Part shown: positions 20,227 through 64,000 of the stretch, piece after piece | Numbering within the stretch: the stretch's first letter is position 1 | Layout: every line of letters starts with the position of its first letter | Assembly: GCA_002215675.1 (NCBI GenBank) | Contig: NGFH01000004.1 | Span: forward strand, 310,001 to 374,000 | Direction: 5' to 3' | Length of the DNA stretch: 64,000 bases | DNA from: Bacteroidetes bacterium 2013_40CM_41_45 | Lineage (GTDB): Bacteria; Bacteroidota; Bacteroidia; AKYH767-A; 2013-40CM-41-45 | Program-made: the position numbers and the translations under genes | Notes under the pieces: model-generated | Seen by the model: the letters and a program-made list of their open reading frames with translations, nothing else | What the model was told of the DNA's origin: nothing | Database searches by the model: none

Positions 20227-20249
20227 TTAATCCTGAATCTTATTTATTA

Positions 20250-20320
20250 TTGCGGATTACGAATTGATGATTTCGGATTAAAAATAAATTCGCAATTTAA
20301 AATTCGCAATCCGAAATTGC
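20250..20320. repeat. Two-armed heptamer hairpin
   Basis: Left arm 20250-20284: five 7-bp units beginning TT (TTGCGGA, TTACGAA, TTGATGA, TTTCGGA, TTAAAAA). Right arm 20289-20316: units TTCGCAA, TTTAAAA, TTCGCAA, TCCGAAA, largely reverse complements of the left units. CGGATTACGAATT (20253) pairs with AATTCGCAATCCG (20301) with one mismatch. It fills the gap between the rhodanese and DedA genes, both on the plus strand. Confidence 0.7.
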
Positions 20321-20974: not shown

Positions 20975-21702
20975 GAACATTCGGCCTCATTGGTTTTCCG
21001 ATTGGTCATTCGTTTTCTCAAAAATATTTTTCTGAAAAGTTTAAGCGAGCAAACATCAGCGATGCTGAATTCAAAAACTTCCCTCTTGAAAATATAAATG
21101 ATTTTCCCGGGTTGATTGAAGACAATTCCAATCTGCTTGGTTTAAGTGTTACCATCCCTCACAAACAAAGCGTGATGAAATTTTTGAATGCAATAGATTC
21201 AGTTGCAAGTGAAACAGGAGCAGTGAATTGTATTAAAGTTAGTGAGACATTAAAAGGATTTAACACCGATGTTTATGGATTTGAAAAGTCTTTGCTGCCG
21301 CTTTTAAAAAATCATCATATCAAAGCATTAATACTCGGCAGTGGGGGAGGAGCAAAAGCAGTTAAATATGTTCTGAAGAAATCAGGAATTGAATATATGT
21401 TTGTTTCAAGAAGCCAAAAGCCGAAAGTCAAAAGCTACCATGATTTGAACAGTGAAATAATTTCATCGCACATGCTCATCATTAACACAACCCCTCTTGG
21501 TATGTTTCCTGATGTTGGTTCACGTCCAAAAATTCCTTACGAACACCTCACGGAAAAACATTTGCTGTATGATTTGGTATATAATCCGCAGGAAACTTTG
21601 TTTCTGAAAAAGGGAAAAGAAAGAGGGGCACAGGTAAAGAATGGTTTAGAAATGCTGCAACTACAGGCAGATAAAGCATGGGAGATATGGAATGGTCATT
21701 AG
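20971..21702 (+). CDS. aroE: Shikimate dehydrogenase
   Basis: 243 aa. Reduces 3-dehydroshikimate to shikimate with NADPH in the aromatic amino acid pathway. Motifs: FPIGHSFSQKYF at the N terminus, LSVTIPHKQSV with the catalytic Lys, GFNTDVYGF with the catalytic Asp, nucleotide loop GSGGGAKAV and NTTPLGMFP. It is somewhat shorter than the usual 270 or so residues, mainly in loops, with all key residues present. It overlaps dedA by 4 bp. The stop codon TAG lies inside a heptamer array, so the last residues (NGH) are encoded by repeat sequence. Confidence 0.93.
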   Translation: MRTFGLIGFPIGHSFSQKYFSEKFKRANISDAEFKNFPLENINDFPGLIEDNSNLLGLSVTIPHKQSVMKFLNAIDSVASETGAVNCIKVSETLKGFNTDVYGFEKSLLPLLKNHHIKALILGSGGGAKAVKYVLKKSGIEYMFVSRSQKPKVKSYHDLNSEIISSHMLIINTTPLGMFPDVGSRPKIPYEHLTEKHLLYDLVYNPQETLFLKKGKERGAQVKNGLEMLQLQADKAWEIWNGH

Positions 21703-21736
21703 TCATTGGTCATTGGTCATTAGTCATTGGTTATTC
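21695..21736. repeat. Single-armed heptamer array (GTCATTR)
   Basis: Six tandem 7-bp units: GTCATTA, GTCATTG, GTCATTG, GTCATTA, GTCATTG, GTTATTC. The first two units contain the end and stop codon of aroE. No inverted second arm is visible; TATTCGT-type motifs follow up to the uvrB start. Confidence 0.75.
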
Positions 21737-37678: not shown

Positions 37679-37685
37679 ATCTGAA

Positions 37686-37768
37686 ATTGAAAATTGAAAA
37701 TTAATAATTAATAATTAATGGTTGTGAATGCTTTGTTTTCATTCTCAATTCTCAATTCTCAATTTTAA
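37686..37768. repeat. Two-armed heptamer hairpin (ATTGAAA / ATTCTCA)
   Basis: Left arm 37686-37720: ATTGAAA twice, ATTAATA twice, ATTAATG. Right arm 37741-37768: ATTCTCA three times, then ATTTTAA. The right arm read in reverse complement gives TGAGAAT units that resemble the left arm. It fills the GH3-fabD gap and includes the fabD stop codon. Confidence 0.75.
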
Positions 37769-38649
37769 AAATTTATTGCTTCAGCATCCTTATTTATCTT
37801 CTTCACCAATCCTTGTAAAACCTTTCCGGGGCCGACTTCGATAAATGTTTTTGCCCCGTTAGCAATCATGTTTTGTATGGTTTGTGTCCACCGTACCGGA
37901 GCAGTGAGCTGCGCAATCAGGTTCTTTTTAATTTCTTCTATATCCGTAACACCTTTAGCGGTTACATTTTGATAAATGGGACAAACGGGTTTTTGGAAAG
38001 CCGTGGACTGAATGGCTTTTTCCAGTTCGGCGCGGGCAGGCTCCATCAATGGAGAGTGAAATGCACCGCCAACGTTCAGCACAACAGCACGCTTTGCCCC
38101 GGCTGCCTTCATTTTTTCACAGGCAATGTTTATTCCGTTGATTGTGCCGGAAATCACAATTTGCCCCGGGCAGTTGTAATTTGCAGCCACAACAATTTCG
38201 CCCTGTGCGGAAACTTCAGCGCAGATTCTTTCCACCACCTCATCGTCCAGCATTAGTATTGCCGCCATCGTTGAAGGGTTTATTTCGCAGGCATGCTGCA
38301 TAGCATCGGCTCTTTTCTTTACAAGCATGAGTCCGTCTTCGAACGTAAGCGATTTAGAAGCAACAAGAGCAGAAAATTCTCCGAGTGAATGCCCTGCAGT
38401 CATATCCGGATGAAATTCTGAAGCACGTACAGTTGCAAGAACTACGGAGTGCAAAAAAATTGCCGGCTGGGTTACGCGCGTTTGTTTCAAATCCTCCTCT
38501 GTTCCGTTGAACATTACATCGGTGATACGGAAGCCAAGAAGAGAATTTGACTTTTCAAAAAGTTCTTTTGCCCGCGGAGAACTGTCGTAAAGTTCTTTGC
38601 CCATGCCGGGAAACTGTGAGCCCTGCCCGGGGAAGATGTATGCTTTCAT
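37765..38649 (-). CDS. fabD: ACP S-malonyltransferase
   Basis: 294 aa. Moves malonyl from CoA to acyl carrier protein in fatty acid synthesis. Motifs: FPGQGSQFPGMGKELYD at the start, GHSLGEFSALV with nucleophile S88, GGAFHSPLM with the catalytic His near 199, and the substrate-binding Arg region in the RADAMQ stretch. Full length. A TACATTTG box lies upstream and a heptamer hairpin reaches its stop codon. No other fab genes are adjacent. Confidence 0.96.
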   Translation of the reverse strand: MKAYIFPGQGSQFPGMGKELYDSSPRAKELFEKSNSLLGFRITDVMFNGTEEDLKQTRVTQPAIFLHSVVLATVRASEFHPDMTAGHSLGEFSALVASKSLTFEDGLMLVKKRADAMQHACEINPSTMAAILMLDDEVVERICAEVSAQGEIVVAANYNCPGQIVISGTINGINIACEKMKAAGAKRAVVLNVGGAFHSPLMEPARAELEKAIQSTAFQKPVCPIYQNVTAKGVTDIEEIKKNLIAQLTAPVRWTQTIQNMIANGAKTFIEVGPGKVLQGLVKKINKDAEAINF

Positions 38650-39025: not shown

Positions 39026-39100
39026 CCTTCGGTCGCCATAGGCTTGCCGAAGGCGATGCAAACTTCAAACTCCAAACCTCAAACCCCTAACGCTAAACCG
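39026..39100. repeat. Palindrome plus heptamer array before sucC
   Basis: CCTTCGG (39026) and CCGAAGG (39047) form a 7-bp inverted repeat. It is followed by six 7-bp units at 39059-39100: CAAACTT, CAAACTC, CAAACCT, CAAACCC, CTAACGC, TAAACCG. The array lies between divergent genes, close to the sucC start. Confidence 0.65.
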
Positions 39101-40338: not shown

Positions 40339-41714
40339 AACCTTCTATTCCCAAAGGCACACGCGATTTTTCTCCTGCAGAAATGCAGCGGAGGAATTAC
40401 ATTTTTGAAACCATCAAAAGTGTTTTTCTTCTCCACGGATTTCAGCAGATTGAAACACCGGCAATGGAAAATCTTTCTGTGCTGGAAGGAAAATATGGGG
40501 AAGAAGGGGATAAATTGTTGTTTAGGATTTTAAATTCCGGCCCTGTACTTGAACAAATCCGAAATTCGAAATCCGAAATTCGAAATGCAGATGTTACAGA
40601 AAAAGGTTTACGTTACGACCTCACTGTTCCCTTTGCACGTTATGTTGTCCAGCATCGCAACGAAATAACTTTTCCCTTCAAGCGCTTTCAAATACAACAG
40701 GTGTGGAGGGCGGATAGACCGCAGAAGGGAAGGTATAGAGAATTTTACCAATGTGATGCGGATATTATAGGCAGCAATTCACTGCTTAATGAAGTGGAAC
40801 TGATTCAGATTGTTGATAAAGTATTTACTCAATTCAAAATTCCAGTCACCATAAAAGTTAATAATAGAAAAATCTTGCAAGGAATTGCTGAATTATATAA
40901 TCTGAAAGAAAAATTTAAGGATTTTATTATTGTGCTGGATAAGATTGAGAAGATCGGATTAGAAGGTGTGGAGAATGAATTAAAAGAAAAAGGATTAACC
41001 CAAATAAATATTAGGACAGTTTTAATTCGACAGTCGATAGCAAGGGGATTAAAATTTACTGACGGTTCTGATATGGCATTATCAGATATTAATAATGCAT
41101 TCCAAAAATGTGAGTCCGAGGTTGGAATGAAAGGAATCACGGAAGTTGTCGCTATTGCTAACACTGTTTATGAAACAACTGAATTGAAGAATTCAATTGA
41201 ATTCGATATTTCATTGGCACGGGGGCTAGATTACTATACAGGTGCCATCATAGAAGTAAAAGCAAAAGATGTTCAGATAGGAAGTGTTTGTGGTGGCGGG
41301 CGCTATGATGACCTAACAGGGATTTTCGGTTTGCCCAACGTAAGCGGTGTAGGAATTTCCTTTGGCGTTGACCGGATTTATGACGTAATGGAAGAGCTGA
41401 AATTGTTTGATGCGTTGCAGACAGAACAGTCATCAACCGAAATTCTTTTTGTGAATTTCGGGGAAAAGGAAGAAATTTTTTGCCTGAAACTGGTTACCGA
41501 ACTGCGCAGTGCGGGCATTGCCGCTGAGCTTTATCCCGACCGAGACAAAATAAAAAAGCAGATGTCGTATGCCAACGACAGGAAAATTCCTTTCGTAGCT
41601 CTGGTTGGCGAAGAGGAAATGAAATCGGGCAAAGTGAAGCTGAAAGATATGAATTCGGGAGAAGAGAAGTTGGTTGGAAAAGAACAAATCGCAGAGATGA
41701 TTGGAAAAAAATAA
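40335..41714 (+). CDS. hisS: Histidyl-tRNA synthetase
   Basis: 459 aa from a TTG start whose last two bases are the first two of the sucC stop (TTGA). The protein then begins with the canonical [13 protein letters not shown], so TTG is the true start. Class II motifs: motif 2 region [26 protein letters not shown], HisA signatures [15 protein letters not shown] and [13 protein letters not shown], then the anticodon-binding domain. Residues about 75-84 ([10 protein letters not shown]) are encoded by four tandem heptamers. This loop varies in the family, so function should be kept. Confidence 0.97.
40556..40583. repeat. Heptamer array inside hisS
   Basis: AATCCGA, AATTCGA, AATCCGA, AATTCGA: four 7-bp units forming two exact tandem 14-bp copies. 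The same unit type occurs in the hairpin at 20250-20320. It is in frame and encodes part of a variable loop. Confidence 0.8.
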
Positions 41715-45549: not shown

Positions 45550-45582
45550 AGAACCCTAAACCTGAACCCTAAAGTCTAAACC
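45550..45582. repeat. Heptamer array (AGAACCC, TAAACCT)
   Basis: Degenerate 7-bp units AGAACCC, TAAACCT, GAACCCT, AAAGTCT, AAACC in the divergent spacer between the FG-GAP gene and the ABC gene. It resembles the CAAACCT arrays at 39059 and 51588. Confidence 0.45.
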
Positions 45583-51587: not shown

Positions 51588-51608
51588 CAAACTTCAAACC
51601 TCAAACCG
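51588..51608. repeat. Three tandem heptamers (CAAACYN)
   Basis: CAAACTT, CAAACCT, CAAACCG directly after the trmB stop, before the OPT transporter promoter. Confidence 0.45.
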
Positions 51609-54579: not shown

Positions 54580-54588
54580 TGTATGATA

Positions 54589-54630
54589 ATGGAAAATTGA
54601 AAATCCAATTATCAATTATTAACTATCAAT
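54589..54630. repeat. Two-armed heptamer hairpin between convergent genes
   Basis: Left units ATGGAAA, ATTGAAA, ATCCAAT; right units TATCAAT, TATTAAC, TATCAAT, followed by a T-rich tract. The arms are roughly reverse complementary. It lies between the convergent desaturase and DUF6089 genes and could end both transcripts. Confidence 0.55.
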
Positions 54631-54638
54631 TTTTTATT

Positions 54639-55475
54639 TCATTGTGATATTCTATGCCTGTTAAACGGCTTGCATGAATATTTGAATTTGTTTCCGATGC
54701 CTATATATGCTGAAACCCCGGTGAACATATACCAGTCAGGGTCTTTGGAATTACCTCGCTTTTTTCCTTCGTTCAGAAGGGGGTCGGAACCAAGAGTCCG
54801 GTCTGACAGGGCTTCGGCCTCCGCTCCATTAGTAGCAAGAAGAGCAACAGGGTTAGGATATGTTGTGCTTACGTCATCCAGGTAGTCAGTATACGCTCTT
54901 CTTACGCCCATCTCTATGGTGAAGCCGATGTTGTCTCCATTGATTTTAAATCCGCCCCCAAACAGGAATGCTGCGCTATATAAGCTATATGGCTGCCGGT
55001 CGGCATATACTCCCTGGCCTTCGGTTCCCAAGGGCTGAAGTTCTATTTCTTGCCCCCTCAATTCCGCCTTCGGATTGAAGTGAAAAACCGATAACCCCGA
55101 GTACATAAACGGGGTAAACAGGTAATTGTAATTACCTAATTCATAGGGCATAAAATTAAATTCAAAGCTGCCTTCAATTTCCTGGATGGAGGAGGAGAAT
55201 GATAAATTACGGTTTACCTCAAAATCGTATTTAGAATAGGCATCATCGCCCGAAACTTTTCCGATGGTTGCTCCTATCCTGAAACTCCAGTGCTTATTAA
55301 AATTATCGCGGTAATAGGCGCCAAAAGCAGGGTGAATAAAATGGAAAGTGAAAAAACTATTGGATAGCTCTCCCTTATACTTCGAAACGCCCAGGAACAA
55401 GCCAATATCGTTTCGCTGGGCGGAAATATCCCCCCATGTAAAAAATACCAGGAAAATCAGTACTAATCTTTTCAT
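54639..55475 (-). CDS. DUF6089 outer-membrane beta-barrel protein
   Basis: 278 aa. A signal peptide covers about 1-19 (ending DISAQ). The body alternates hydrophobic and aromatic residues as in an outer-membrane barrel, with the family stretches RNDIGLFLGVSKYKGEL, KVSGDDAY, FHFNPKA and LQPLGTEGQGVYADR. It shares these blocks with the next gene upstream (55543-56448), so the two are tandem paralogues. Function unknown; the family is widespread in Bacteroidota. Confidence 0.85.
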   Translation of the reverse strand: MKRLVLIFLVFFTWGDISAQRNDIGLFLGVSKYKGELSNSFFTFHFIHPAFGAYYRDNFNKHWSFRIGATIGKVSGDDAYSKYDFEVNRNLSFSSSIQEIEGSFEFNFMPYELGNYNYLFTPFMYSGLSVFHFNPKAELRGQEIELQPLGTEGQGVYADRQPYSLYSAAFLFGGGFKINGDNIGFTIEMGVRRAYTDYLDDVSTTYPNPVALLATNGAEAEALSDRTLGSDPLLNEGKKRGNSKDPDWYMFTGVSAYIGIGNKFKYSCKPFNRHRISQ

Positions 55476-57597: not shown

Positions 57598-57598
57598 A

Positions 57599-57664
57599 GT
57601 TATCAGTTATACGTTATTAGTTATTAGAAAAAAAGCGTATAACTTATAACATGTAACTTGTAAC
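57599..57664. repeat. Two-armed heptamer hairpin (GTTATNN)
   Basis: Left arm: GTTATCA, GTTATAC, GTTATTA, GTTATTA (57599-57626). Right arm: GTATAAC, TTATAAC, ATGTAAC, TTGTAAC (57637-57664), that is, four units read in reverse complement. The outer 15 bases of the left arm pair with 57636-57650 with one mismatch. It lies between convergent genes and is the cleanest two-armed hairpin without cargo. Confidence 0.85.
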
Positions 57665-61565: not shown

Positions 61566-62540
61566 TTATTTAAGGTTTCGAAAAAACTCAACTACTTTTT
61601 CAGCAAGCTCAATGCCGATACGCTCCTGTGCTTCGCGTGTAGAGCCACCTATGTGGGGTGACATAGAAATTTTTGCGTGTGAACGGATTTCTTTATTTAC
61701 GAGTGGCTCTCCTTCAAAAACATCAAGAGCTGCATAAGAAACTTTACCAGAATTCAAGGCTGCAATCAAATCATTTTCTGAAATAACCCCGGCACGTGCC
61801 GTATTTACAAGCCCTACACCATTTTTCATTATCCCGAATTCTTTTGTAGTGATAACAGGGGAAGTTCCTTTTGGAAACGGAATATGCACCGTGACAAAAT
61901 CGCTTCCGGTCAGGAGCTTTTCAAGCGAAACGCATTGAAATGCAAGCGAAATTTTCTGAGATGAAACACCCTGATGAAAACTCAAATCGAATTTAACATC
62001 CGTAACAAAAGCGTCATGAAAAATAATATTCATTCCCAGCCCTGCAGCCATTTTTGCAACGGCTTTACCAATCATTCCGGCACCTATGATGCCTAGTGTT
62101 TTTCCTGACAGCTCAATTCCCTCTGAATATTTTTTCTTGAGCGCGTTGAATTTTTCCTTTGAGTCGCACAGCGGCATGGCGCGGTTTGAATCATGCAGGT
62201 AACGTGCCATGGTGAAGAGATGTGCAAAAACAAGTTCGGCTACTGATTGCGAACTTGCCGCAGGTGTGTTAACCACGTTAATACCTTTTTGCTCTGCATA
62301 CTTCACATCAATGTTATCCATACCAACACCTGCTCTTCCTATTAATTTCAGATTTGGAGCTGCATCCATATTTTCTTTCCGCACCTGTGTAGCACTGCGC
62401 ACAAGAATTGCATCAAAATTCTTAAGAGCATCGTTAAGGTTTTCCTGCGCAACTTTTTCAGTTACCACCTGGTGATTTGCTGCTTCAAGAATTTTTTTTC
62501 CTGCAGCATCTATGCCATCGTTTGCGAGTATGGTTGCCAT
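61566..62540 (-). CDS. serA: D-3-phosphoglycerate dehydrogenase-like protein
   Basis: 324 aa, D-2-hydroxyacid dehydrogenase fold. NAD loop GIIGAGMIGKAVAKMAAGLGM; catalytic Arg in NTARAGVISENDL, Glu in VFEGEPL and His in SPHIGGST. There is no C-terminal ACT domain, as in short SerA forms. It oxidises 3-phosphoglycerate to start serine synthesis; other hydroxyacid substrates are possible. An aminotransferase gene lies upstream on the same strand and would do the next step. A heptamer arm ends 4 bp from its ATG. Confidence 0.9.
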   Translation of the reverse strand: MATILANDGIDAAGKKILEAANHQVVTEKVAQENLNDALKNFDAILVRSATQVRKENMDAAPNLKLIGRAGVGMDNIDVKYAEQKGINVVNTPAASSQSVAELVFAHLFTMARYLHDSNRAMPLCDSKEKFNALKKKYSEGIELSGKTLGIIGAGMIGKAVAKMAAGLGMNIIFHDAFVTDVKFDLSFHQGVSSQKISLAFQCVSLEKLLTGSDFVTVHIPFPKGTSPVITTKEFGIMKNGVGLVNTARAGVISENDLIAALNSGKVSYAALDVFEGEPLVNKEIRSHAKISMSPHIGGSTREAQERIGIELAEKVVEFFRNLK

Positions 62541-62543
62541 AAT

Positions 62544-62578
62544 AGTTAGTATTCAGTAATCAGTGTTCAGTTCGGAGT
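62544..62578. repeat. Left heptamer arm of the four-helix-bundle cassette
   Basis: Five 7-bp units, each ending AGT: AGTTAGT, ATTCAGT, AATCAGT, GTTCAGT, TCGGAGT. The last unit is nearest to the enclosed gene. Its inverted counterpart is at 62958-62999. Confidence 0.8.
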
Positions 62579-62597
62579 AAGAGAGATAAAGAATGAA

Positions 62598-62957
62598 TTA
62601 TGAGATTGATTTTATCAATCCATTTAACATTTTTGAAATTTCTACACATGAAGAGCGTAATTTTTGATGGTCGTTTTCGTGAAGATATTTTTGATTACCA
62701 GCAATCGTCATGCAGACAACGCATTCACGAACAGAACGCTTGGAAATACGAAGAAAGTTTTTGAATTCTGGTTTTGTTCCACCTGTGCCTTCACCGATGT
62801 TCAAAGCAATGGAGTGAGCAGCGCGAATAAATTGCTGCGCCAAGGAATATTTTTCACTTGTAGGAAATTTTTCTGTTACAAAATGTACAAGCTGAATAAA
62901 ATCCAGACTCTTCTGATAAACCAATAATCCTTCAAATTCAAACTTATAATCTTCCAT
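62598..62957 (-). CDS. Four-helix-bundle protein (23S rRNA intervening-sequence protein type)
   Basis: 119 aa, all helical. Family patterns: LLVYQKSLDFIQLVHFVTEKFP at the N terminus, SLAQQFIRAAHSIALNIGEG and NFLRISKRSVRECVVCMTIAG. These are the TIGR02436/S23-type proteins first found in spacers of 23S rRNA and related to the Avd accessory proteins of diversity-generating retroelements. It sits alone between two serine-biosynthesis genes, enclosed by inverted arrays of 7-bp units, and so looks like an inserted cassette. The molecular role is unknown. Confidence 0.92.
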   Translation of the reverse strand: MEDYKFEFEGLLVYQKSLDFIQLVHFVTEKFPTSEKYSLAQQFIRAAHSIALNIGEGTGGTKPEFKNFLRISKRSVRECVVCMTIAGNQKYLHENDHQKLRSSCVEISKMLNGLIKSIS

Positions 62958-62999
62958 ACTTATAACTCCGAACTGATTACTGGGTACTGATTACTTTAA
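62958..62999. repeat. Right heptamer arm of the four-helix-bundle cassette
   Basis: Six 7-bp units, each beginning ACT: ACTTATA, ACTCCGA, ACTGATT, ACTGGGT, ACTGATT, ACTTTAA. The second to fifth are reverse complements of TCGGAGT, AATCAGT, ACCCAGT and AATCAGT. ACTCCGAACTG (62965-62975) is a perfect 11-bp inverted match of 62568-62578. The array reaches into the end of the aminotransferase gene. Confidence 0.8.
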
Positions 63000-64000
63000 C
63001 TTTAGTATTTCCACAATCGCCCCCGTCACTTCAACCATATCATCCATGGTAAGCTCGCCCATGTGAGCAATGCGGAACGTTTTATCCTTCAAGTCTCCAT
63101 AACCGTTGGAGATTTGCATGTTCCTTTTTGCTAGTTCCTTGTTTAGATCACCAACATTGATGTTGCGCGTGTTATCAATGCAGGTTACAGTCATAGACTC
63201 AAAACCCGGTTTTGCAAATTGCTTGAAATATTTATTCGCCCATTCAATGGTAAACTCAGCCATTTCCAGGTGCCGGTCAAAACGACTTTCAAGCCCTTCC
63301 TTGAAAATTCTGTCGAGCTGAAAATCGAGCGCAAACATGTGCGACAGCGATGGCGTTGAAGAATACTGGTAGTCCTTTTTATCCACATACTTGACCAAGT
63401 TTTTCAAATCGAGATAATATCCCTTGTTCCCCACCTTCTCAAAACGCGCTTCAGCTTTGGGAGAAATGGACGCTATAGACAAGCCGGGAGGCAGCGCTAA
63501 TGCTTTCTGAGATGACGTGATACATATGTCGAAACCGAGCTTATCCACTTCCACTTTTGTTCCTCCCAGTGAACTGACGCAGTCAACCAGGTACACCACA
63601 TCAGGATATTTTTTAATCACGTCCGTTATAGCATAAGCGGGATTCATTATTCCTACCGAAGTTTCGTTGTGCGTAATGGTGACCGTATCATATTTGCCTG
63701 TTAAAAGATATTTGTCAACGGTTTCAGGAAGTGTAGGCTGCCCGGGAGTTTCTTCATGAAGGTCTGCCTCAACACCGTTCAGTTTTGCGAGCTCGTACCA
63801 GCGTTTGCCGAAAGCACCGATGGAAAAAACAATCGCGCGTTTTGCTGTTGCACTGCGGATGGCGCCTTCCATAAGCCCTGTGCCGGAAGATGTGCTGAGA
63901 ATAATTTTTCCGGTCGTGTACATGAGCGTGCGCATTTTTTCAGAAATGCTTCTCTGTAAATCCGATGCGTCTTTGCCGCGGTGACCAATCATTGGGGTTG
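62991..64000 (-). CDS. Class V aminotransferase, probable phosphoserine aminotransferase (partial)
   Basis: The frame is open to the window edge; the visible part is about 336 residues and lacks the true N terminus (the reading continues upstream of TPMIGHRGKDA). PLP fold type I with ILSTSSGTGLMEGAIRS, VYLVDCVSSLGGTKVEVDKLGFDICITSSQKALALPPG (PLP Lys in SSQKAL) and the C-terminal FRIAHMGELT. It is of the alanine-glyoxylate/archaeal SerC-like type rather than the classical SerC. The serA-like gene downstream suggests it acts as phosphoserine aminotransferase. Confidence 0.85.
   Translation of the reverse strand, partial: TPMIGHRGKDASDLQRSISEKMRTLMYTTGKIILSTSSGTGLMEGAIRSATAKRAIVFSIGAFGKRWYELAKLNGVEADLHEETPGQPTLPETVDKYLLTGKYDTVTITHNETSVGIMNPAYAITDVIKKYPDVVYLVDCVSSLGGTKVEVDKLGFDICITSSQKALALPPGLSIASISPKAEARFEKVGNKGYYLDLKNLVKYVDKKDYQYSSTPSLSHMFALDFQLDRIFKEGLESRFDRHLEMAEFTIEWANKYFKQFAKPGFESMTVTCIDNTRNINVGDLNKELAKRNMQISNGYGDLKDKTFRIAHMGELTMDDMVEVTGAIVEILKLK

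Follow-up and report, generated by a model that had tools for sequence, protein, structure and literature searches.

Comparative evidence for a class of small, putatively mobile cassettes built from an S23 gene and inverted heptamer arrays in Bacteroidota

A four-helix-bundle gene enclosed by inverted arrays of a 7-bp word, found in the 64,000-nucleotide stretch of DNA analysed here (the window), would belong to a large class of mobile elements of very small size. Each such element would consist of a single S23 gene with a short word repeated in inverted arrays on either side, the word usually being 7 bp long and sometimes 8 or 9 bp. Taken together, the anatomy of the cassette, its generality, its insertion between genes and the correlation between word and protein are well supported, and we have little doubt about them; recognition of the word by the S23 protein is likely from the sequence comparisons, and mobility driven by S23 is the best explanation of the comparative data, which we hold with moderate confidence.

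Results

The gene, located on the minus strand at 62598..62957, encodes a 119-aa protein that belongs to family PF05635 (100.7 bits, cut-off 33.8) and also scores above the cut-off of TIGR02436 (101.6 bits, cut-off 24); both models describe the '23S rRNA intervening sequence' (S23) family. Solved relatives of the protein are PDB entries 2gsc and 2rld. On its upstream side, the gene is bordered by an arm of period 7 (62965..62995, minus strand), which reads AGTAATCAGTACCCAGTAATCAGTTCGGAGT in the sense of the gene, and on its downstream side by an arm (62548..62578, plus strand) in which the 7-bp unit of the upstream arm is inverted (AGTATTCAGTAATCAGTGTTCAGTTCGGAGT on the plus strand). The two arms form a 31-nt inverted repeat that is 84% complementary, with 386 nt between them. 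In gene sense, the units are AGTAATC, AGTACCC, AGTAATC and AGTTCGG, followed by AGT, in the upstream arm, and AGTATTC, AGTAATC, AGTGTTC and AGTTCGG, followed by AGT, in the downstream arm. This amounts, in register, to about 4.4 heptamer units per arm; the initial annotation, made from the sequence alone, had recognised the inverted arrays correctly and was slightly generous in counting five and six tandem units. The perfect inversion that it described is present, with CAGTTCGGAGT at 62568–62578 and its exact reverse complement at 62965–62975.

The whole inserted cassette of arm, gene and arm (62541..62990, minus strand) was delimited from the gap relative to other genomes and from its RNA fold. 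Upstream of it lies a class-V aminotransferase gene (62991..63998, minus strand, PF00266) that runs off the window, and downstream a serA-like D-2-hydroxyacid dehydrogenase gene (61566..62540, minus strand, PF02826/PF00389), which scores below the cut-off of TIGR01327. The reported placement between the aminotransferase stop and the serA start is thus confirmed, with the upstream arm overlapping the stop codon itself (62991–62993) and the downstream arm ending 7 nt from the start codon of the serA-like gene. Folding of the cassette RNA gave −115.5 kcal/mol, compared to −89.3 ± 5.0 kcal/mol for shuffled sequences (z = −5.2), and the closing stem of the fold is formed by the two arms.

Between the aminotransferase and serA-like genes, the gap measures 453 nt here, compared to only 12–87 nt in all eight relatives in which the two genes adjoin (87, 60, 12, 22, 19, 15, 26 and 24 nt), which identifies the window cassette as an insertion. 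The two nearest relatives are not bare at this gap: one (G006) contains a short palindrome of another heptamer, GAGGTTCGAAGTT ... AACCTCGAACCTCAAACTTC, and the other (G002) a heptamer-like run.

The arrangement in the window is general among S23 genes. Ten PF05635 genes are present in this genome (G000), and upon inspection all ten bear inverted repeat arrays at both ends, each with a word of its own; in two of them (L007 and L008), the 3′ end of the ORF reads through the downstream array. We compared 80 S23 genes from G000 and its relatives with an equal number of control genes located on the same contigs, and found a lag-7 array within 120 bp of 78% of the S23 genes versus 24% of the controls (Fisher p = 1e-11), with other lags from 4 to 12 reaching at most 17%. 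True arm pairs gave an inverted match with a score of at least 15 in 45% of cases, compared to 2% for mispaired arms and 3% for control genes. Of 30 loci in further families of the phylum, 60% showed lag 7 and 33% lag 8. In named genomes, including Pontibacter, Flavobacterium, Pedobacter, Algoriphagus and Tenacibaculum, 77% of 93 S23 genes showed lag 7, with an inverted match in 66% versus 4% for mispaired arms. The scan of the collection used a narrower S23 alignment, the broad one being insufficiently conserved, and the set is biased to one S23 subgroup. In all three sets, strong 7-bp periodicity and inversion mark the regions bordering further four-helix-bundle genes, contrary to the refuting outcome that the initial annotation had named, and the arm arrays of the window are not due to chance.

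Most of the 202 S23 genes checked across Bacteroidota bear arms, mostly of period 7 and less often of period 8 or 9. The best period among the first 110 was 7 in 78 genes, 8 in 19 and 9 in three, ruling out a fixed period of 7; seven of the 110 had no clear array. S23 genes occur in 157 of 198 sampled Bacteroidota genomes, with up to 16 per genome. Read in the sense of the gene, the arms are G-rich and C-poor, with G exceeding C in 164 cassettes and falling below it in 17, a strand rule that suggests a single-stranded ligand.

Several observations extend the range of forms. Some downstream arrays (L014, L037 and L099) are self-palindromic, as if two arrays had been joined head to head. Just past the aminotransferase stop at L053 in G008, a run of GTGAATA/GTGAACA units is followed by two copies of the inverted repeat GCCGTAGCTWTAGCGAAGGC, then by more heptamer-like arrays and the next start codon. 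Close S23 relatives are also found under labels outside Bacteroidota proper, in a Patescibacteria MAG (L242), an Ignavibacteriae MAG (L226) and a Chlorobiota MAG (L196), reflecting either horizontal transfer or binning error. In Flavobacterium columnare 94-081 and ATCC 49512, a four helix bundle gene with guanylate kinase on one side and nicotinate-nucleotide adenylyltransferase on the other has been listed as a phage element (PMC5524665, Table 5) and may be such a cassette.

Next, we compared word and protein across 184 cassettes with arms. Mean arm similarity in gene orientation rises with S23 identity, from 6.5 at 20–40% through 12.1 at 60–70% to 22.2 at 70% and above, whereas similarity in reverse orientation stays flat at 5–8 (5.3–7.9); none of 1000 permutations reached the observed word-protein correlation. 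Among S23 pairs with at least 60% identity, 201 of 298 share neighbours, and at high identity part of the correlation is common descent at the same locus. Six of the eight pairs at 70–80% identity without shared neighbours nevertheless have a common word.

The pairing of word and protein is also seen at unrelated loci. Cassette L006 has the word GTCATT(A/G) (arms GGTCATTAG), and its five homologues, in four other genera and at 40–55% identity, have related arms: GTTCATTG, with a period of 8 bp, in G006; GTCATTGG in G046; GTCATTAAT/GTCATTGG in G027 and G022, which share a site; and GCTTCATTG in G005. These genes occupy five independent sites with no other neighbours in common, and all six carry at least four TCATT in their sense arms, while at least three are found in only three of the 202 S23 genes, L006 and its homologue in G006 accounting for two of them. 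In one genus with a conserved cassette, the arms are AAGATTT or AGTATTN depending on the species, and both arms change together as the protein diverges. Genome-wide word or base composition was rejected as a cause of the arm match, because mispaired arms fail to match and unrelated S23 genes of one genome differ in word; sharing of a word within a genome is confined to related S23 genes. In an exploratory analysis only, protein columns 2, 108, 109 and 112 (window numbering) co-vary with the word (z 2.1–3.1).

Heptamer arrays are also found without the gene. The window contains 14 lag-7 arrays with a score of at least 10, compared to 0–3 at other lags except the harmonic 14, and only the array at 62.5 kb flanks an S23 gene. 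Four of the 13 gene-less arrays match a G000 S23 arm far better than the best of ten foreign-genome arms; the other nine have no significant match to any G000 S23 arm, so that some arrays are orphans or their words were missed. The array at 21695..21735 (plus strand, score 29) carries the L006 word GTCATT(A/G), and the one at 40555..40586 (plus strand) matches the arm of cassette L009 with AAATCCGAAATTCG. A partly palindromic array between two genes at 20229..20317 is closest to the L008 word and an inverted array at 54585..54639 to the L007 word, neither being assigned to a strand. Between convergent genes at 57598..57664, AGTTATT and TATAACT form an inverted pair with a 10-nt spacer, for which we found no matching S23 word in G000, and a pair of AAATTGA and ATTCTCA between two genes at 37684..37769 (no strand assigned) has no clear S23 word. 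The orphan words CAAACTT/CAAACCT/AACCCTA, at 39059–39098, 51588–51607 and 45552–45580, likewise match no G000 S23 arm.

Outside the window, the L006 word illustrates how such arrays are dispersed. Three successive copies of GTCATTN occur as 25 matches at 11 dispersed sites in G000, one of them the array at 21695, and in two of 60 relatives, there only as GTCATTC. The dispersed sites are mostly single arrays between genes, with one hairpin (L418), and two of the arrays are open in frame within ORFs: L415 (G000:C2:394050-394550) and L420 (G000:C7:348000-348500). Both of these adjoin a sorting-domain-like sequence (YPNPATNELL/FPNPADESL), their units encode ...VIGHWSL or VISHWSF, and since three 7-bp units add 21 bp, the frame would be kept. 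In other genomes, GAGATNT arrays were found in all three genomes with an S23 protein at least 65% identical to L011 versus 10 of 195 others (Fisher p = 2e-4), and G180 and four genomes of genus g87 (G158, G221, G086 and G098) contain scattered arrays, some of them inverted pairs with spacers of 15–68 nt and no S23 gene near.

In genome samples, we counted two arrays in 309 kb from 11 S23-free genomes and 19 in 341 kb from 11 genomes with 6–12 copies (Mann-Whitney p = 0.006), compared to 14 per 100 kb in the window. This difference bears on the simplest alternative, that 7-bp arrays are slippage hot spots at which S23 genes collect without any recognition. Heptamer arrays without a partner protein are indeed known in several phyla (PMC4679880), and most arrays of the window have no S23 gene; however, genomes without S23 are nearly free of arrays, and a passive association would account neither for a word that tracks the protein at unrelated loci nor for different words at the S23 genes of one genome. 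We therefore rejected it as highly improbable.

The arrays without the gene also bear on an RNA-level alternative, in which the arms form an RNA stem around the ORF that RNase III excises or insulates, as in rRNA intervening sequences, and in which S23 binds this stem to protect or process the transcript, with movement being rare and incidental. The fold of the window cassette with its arms as closing stem and the strong strand rule of the arms are in line with such a role, as is the case of Coxiella burnetii, where RNase III cuts a stem that carries heptamers in the 5′ arm and has the S23 ORF in its loop (PMC4990558). It does not explain why single, unpaired arrays with a given word are dispersed through the genome away from the gene, or why two of them are in frame inside coding sequence, and we consider this reading unlikely.

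Occupied and empty versions of the same site are found at several loci, and cassettes are therefore insertions between genes. Aside from the aminotransferase/serA junction, empty sites of the kind suggested for verification in the initial annotation were found in two genera. Seven of the eight g87 genomes carry the cassette, and the eighth, G127, has an empty site at the DNA level (57 nt versus 406). In g47, where 101 genomes were searched and 20 slots read, one intergenic slot is either short (29 nt in G305), occupied by an arms-only hairpin (AATCAAGAGCCAAGA ... TCTTGGCTCTTGGCT, in seven of the genomes read), or filled by an L178-type cassette or by another kind of S23 cassette, whose arms are made of GTTTAAA. 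The S23 gene of the latter has in-frame stops in G302 (L372) and G281 (L375) with the arms kept, and these two genes are decaying copies. At the same slot, an unrelated inverted-repeat element, CCTCTCCCCGACCCTCTCCAAAGGAGAGGGAG ... GGGGGTTGGGGGGAGG, is also found (L363, L364, L365 and L369). Among seven orthologous S23 genes of g87, dN/dS is about 0.02–0.30, with synonymous sites near saturation in many pairs, so the protein appears to be maintained where the element persists. Neither in the window nor between G127 and G233 could a target-site duplication be seen, the array edges being fuzzy; no fixed end sequence of the cassettes was found, and their outer boundaries are fuzzy as well. The proposal that gene and arms form one inserting unit gains support from the empty sites together with the word being kept at unrelated loci, and neither of the two refuting outcomes named in the initial annotation was observed. 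That annotation had not foreseen that words are specific to each cassette and follow the protein, or that arrays spread on their own; all evidence on mobility is comparative, and points to cassettes that probably move.

Gain and loss of this kind also weigh against a reading in which S23 is a sequence-specific DNA or RNA binder that regulates itself through its own arrays and a regulon through the dispersed ones. The frequent position of arrays between stop and start codons and the co-variation of word and protein would fit a regulator, but the presence or absence of cassettes at orthologous sites, the inverted arrays on both sides of the gene, the arrays within coding sequence and the arms retained by the decayed genes L372 and L375 would not, and we regard this reading as improbable.

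We know of no enzymatic activity or catalytic motif in PF05635 proteins, and host functions or a helper must therefore cut and join. No reverse transcriptase (PF00078) was found in G000, and these enzymes are absent from 12 of the 19 genomes with at least five S23 genes, on which grounds a reverse transcriptase or diversity-generating retroelement (DGR) helper was rejected. S23 copy number correlates with that of Y1_Tnp (rho 0.42, p = 7e-4); however, heptamer arrays flank only one of 19 Y1_Tnp genes versus 22 of 28 S23 genes, G050 has 12 S23 genes and no Y1_Tnp, and the single Y1 copy of G000 has an internal stop, so that a Y1/RAYT helper was set aside as well, the correlation in copy number still leaving some probability to a helper role. 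Neither type of enzyme is a good candidate for moving the cassettes. These results also address the possibility that the arrays are read by some other transposase or recombinase, with S23 as cargo or as a regulatory subunit. The missing catalytic motif and the correlation with Y1_Tnp speak for it, but besides the poor fit of Y1 and reverse transcriptase genes, the word tracks the S23 protein itself, which makes a cargo role rather doubtful. With reverse transcriptases and Y1 transposases not fitting, we infer that S23 is the specificity factor, with the chemistry carried out by others.

Discussion

According to our preferred reading, the S23 protein would recognise, in single strands or hairpins of nucleic acid, the word that belongs to it, and would thereby spread both the cassette that encodes it (in cis) and arrays lacking the gene (in trans), with cutting and joining left to host functions or a further helper; template switching at hairpins is our guess at how this might happen. 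A solved S23 relative is a pentameric ring (PMC4990558). In the transcript, pairing of the arms would enclose the ORF in a stem, and the element could therefore sit inside operons, while words and proteins would diversify together. As a whole, a selfish system similar to REPIN/RAYT, with a non-catalytic S23 protein as its specificity factor, is the reading that we favour with moderate confidence. A more specific proposal, which we consider about evenly balanced, would place the cassettes in a mobile-element class of a new kind. There, a non-catalytic S23 ring protein would read a word of 7–8 nt and direct host machinery to copy arrays, accompanied or not by the S23 gene, into new sites; each protein lineage would have its word, and rRNA intervening sequences would be included.

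Genes for S23 or 'four helix bundle protein' are common in Bacteroidota yet unexplained, and the pairing of protein and word gives the family a testable function, the binding of its own word. Many 7-bp arrays in these genomes would thereby be explained, and a new code of nucleic-acid recognition could come to light from so compact a protein if its target word changes with its sequence. In the open-access literature, we found no report that links S23 genes to heptamer arrays outside rRNA.

Tandem 7-bp arrays as such have been described. The TAACTGA arrays of Beggiatoaceae, cyanobacteria and Bacteroidetes (PMC4679880) resemble the cassette arrays in being intergenic and often near start codons, and that report neither proposes an S23 partner nor contains the terms S23, four-helix or intervening sequence; cyanobacterial STRRs are likewise heptamer repeats. 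MITEs resemble the gene-less hairpins in that they are inverted-repeat miniatures of a gene-bearing form located between genes, and as with transposons and MITEs, both empty and occupied sites are found for the cassettes. Unlike MITEs, the cassettes have no known transposase, with reverse transcriptase and Y1 as the types examined, no target-site duplication could be seen at their fuzzy edges, and their ends differ from one cassette to the next within a genome.

The kinship with Avd of DGRs stated in the initial annotation stands as a distant sequence relation: scores against the Avd models NF033474 (26.9 bits, cut-off 80) and bAvd PF22296 (35 bits) are under the cut-off, and no reverse transcriptase was found in G000.

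REPIN/RAYT systems (PMC3116915) are closer in their way of life. Short repeats flank the gene in both, with gene-less hairpins and single repeats scattered in the genome, each repeat family has a protein partner to itself, and the partner proteins within a genome are single copies that differ from one another. Partner-specific doublets and singlets in trans are found here with S23 in place of RAYT, the singlets predominating at the sites read. RAYT transposases are thought to spread REPINs (PMC3116915). The differences are that RAYT is a Y1 HUH transposase and S23 an unrelated four-helix bundle, that no Y1 HUH transposase is linked to the repeats described here, and that REPs are fixed palindromes while S23 arrays are tandem 7-bp units. 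If the preferred reading is right, S23 would be a second, unrelated protein solution to the same way of life.

Intervening sequences of rRNA have been known since about 1990 and have, to our knowledge, no accepted origin. In anatomy, they are the near precedent for the cassette: those of 23S rRNA in Coxiella and Leptospira, of about 430–450 nt, likewise place an S23 ORF between stem-forming inverted repeats, and they have been called selfish and suspected to be mobile. The window cassette has its S23 ORF inside stem-forming terminal inverted repeats and also tandem heptamers in the arm, although heptamers are not known to define all intervening sequences. In Coxiella burnetii, the S23 ORF lies in a stem-loop with a 28-bp closing stem, and the 5′ arm contains GACAGAT heptamers, two or three depending on the strain, with RNase III cutting at the first (PMC4990558); our link to Coxiella rests on that publication rather than on Coxiella sequence analysed here. 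The two differ in location, as intervening sequences sit in 23S rRNA helices and the cassettes between protein-coding genes, with many per genome and with different words; a word-protein link and gene-less arrays have not been described for intervening sequences. No Rfam match was found in 33 kb around the ten G000 copies, none of which (0/10) lies in rRNA, and formally the window cassette is thus not an intervening sequence. By analogy, S23-bearing intervening sequences of 23S rRNA would stem from copies inserted at an rRNA loop that tolerates them, and hence be a special case of the cassette class described here, which, if so, may also explain inserts in bacterial rRNA genes.
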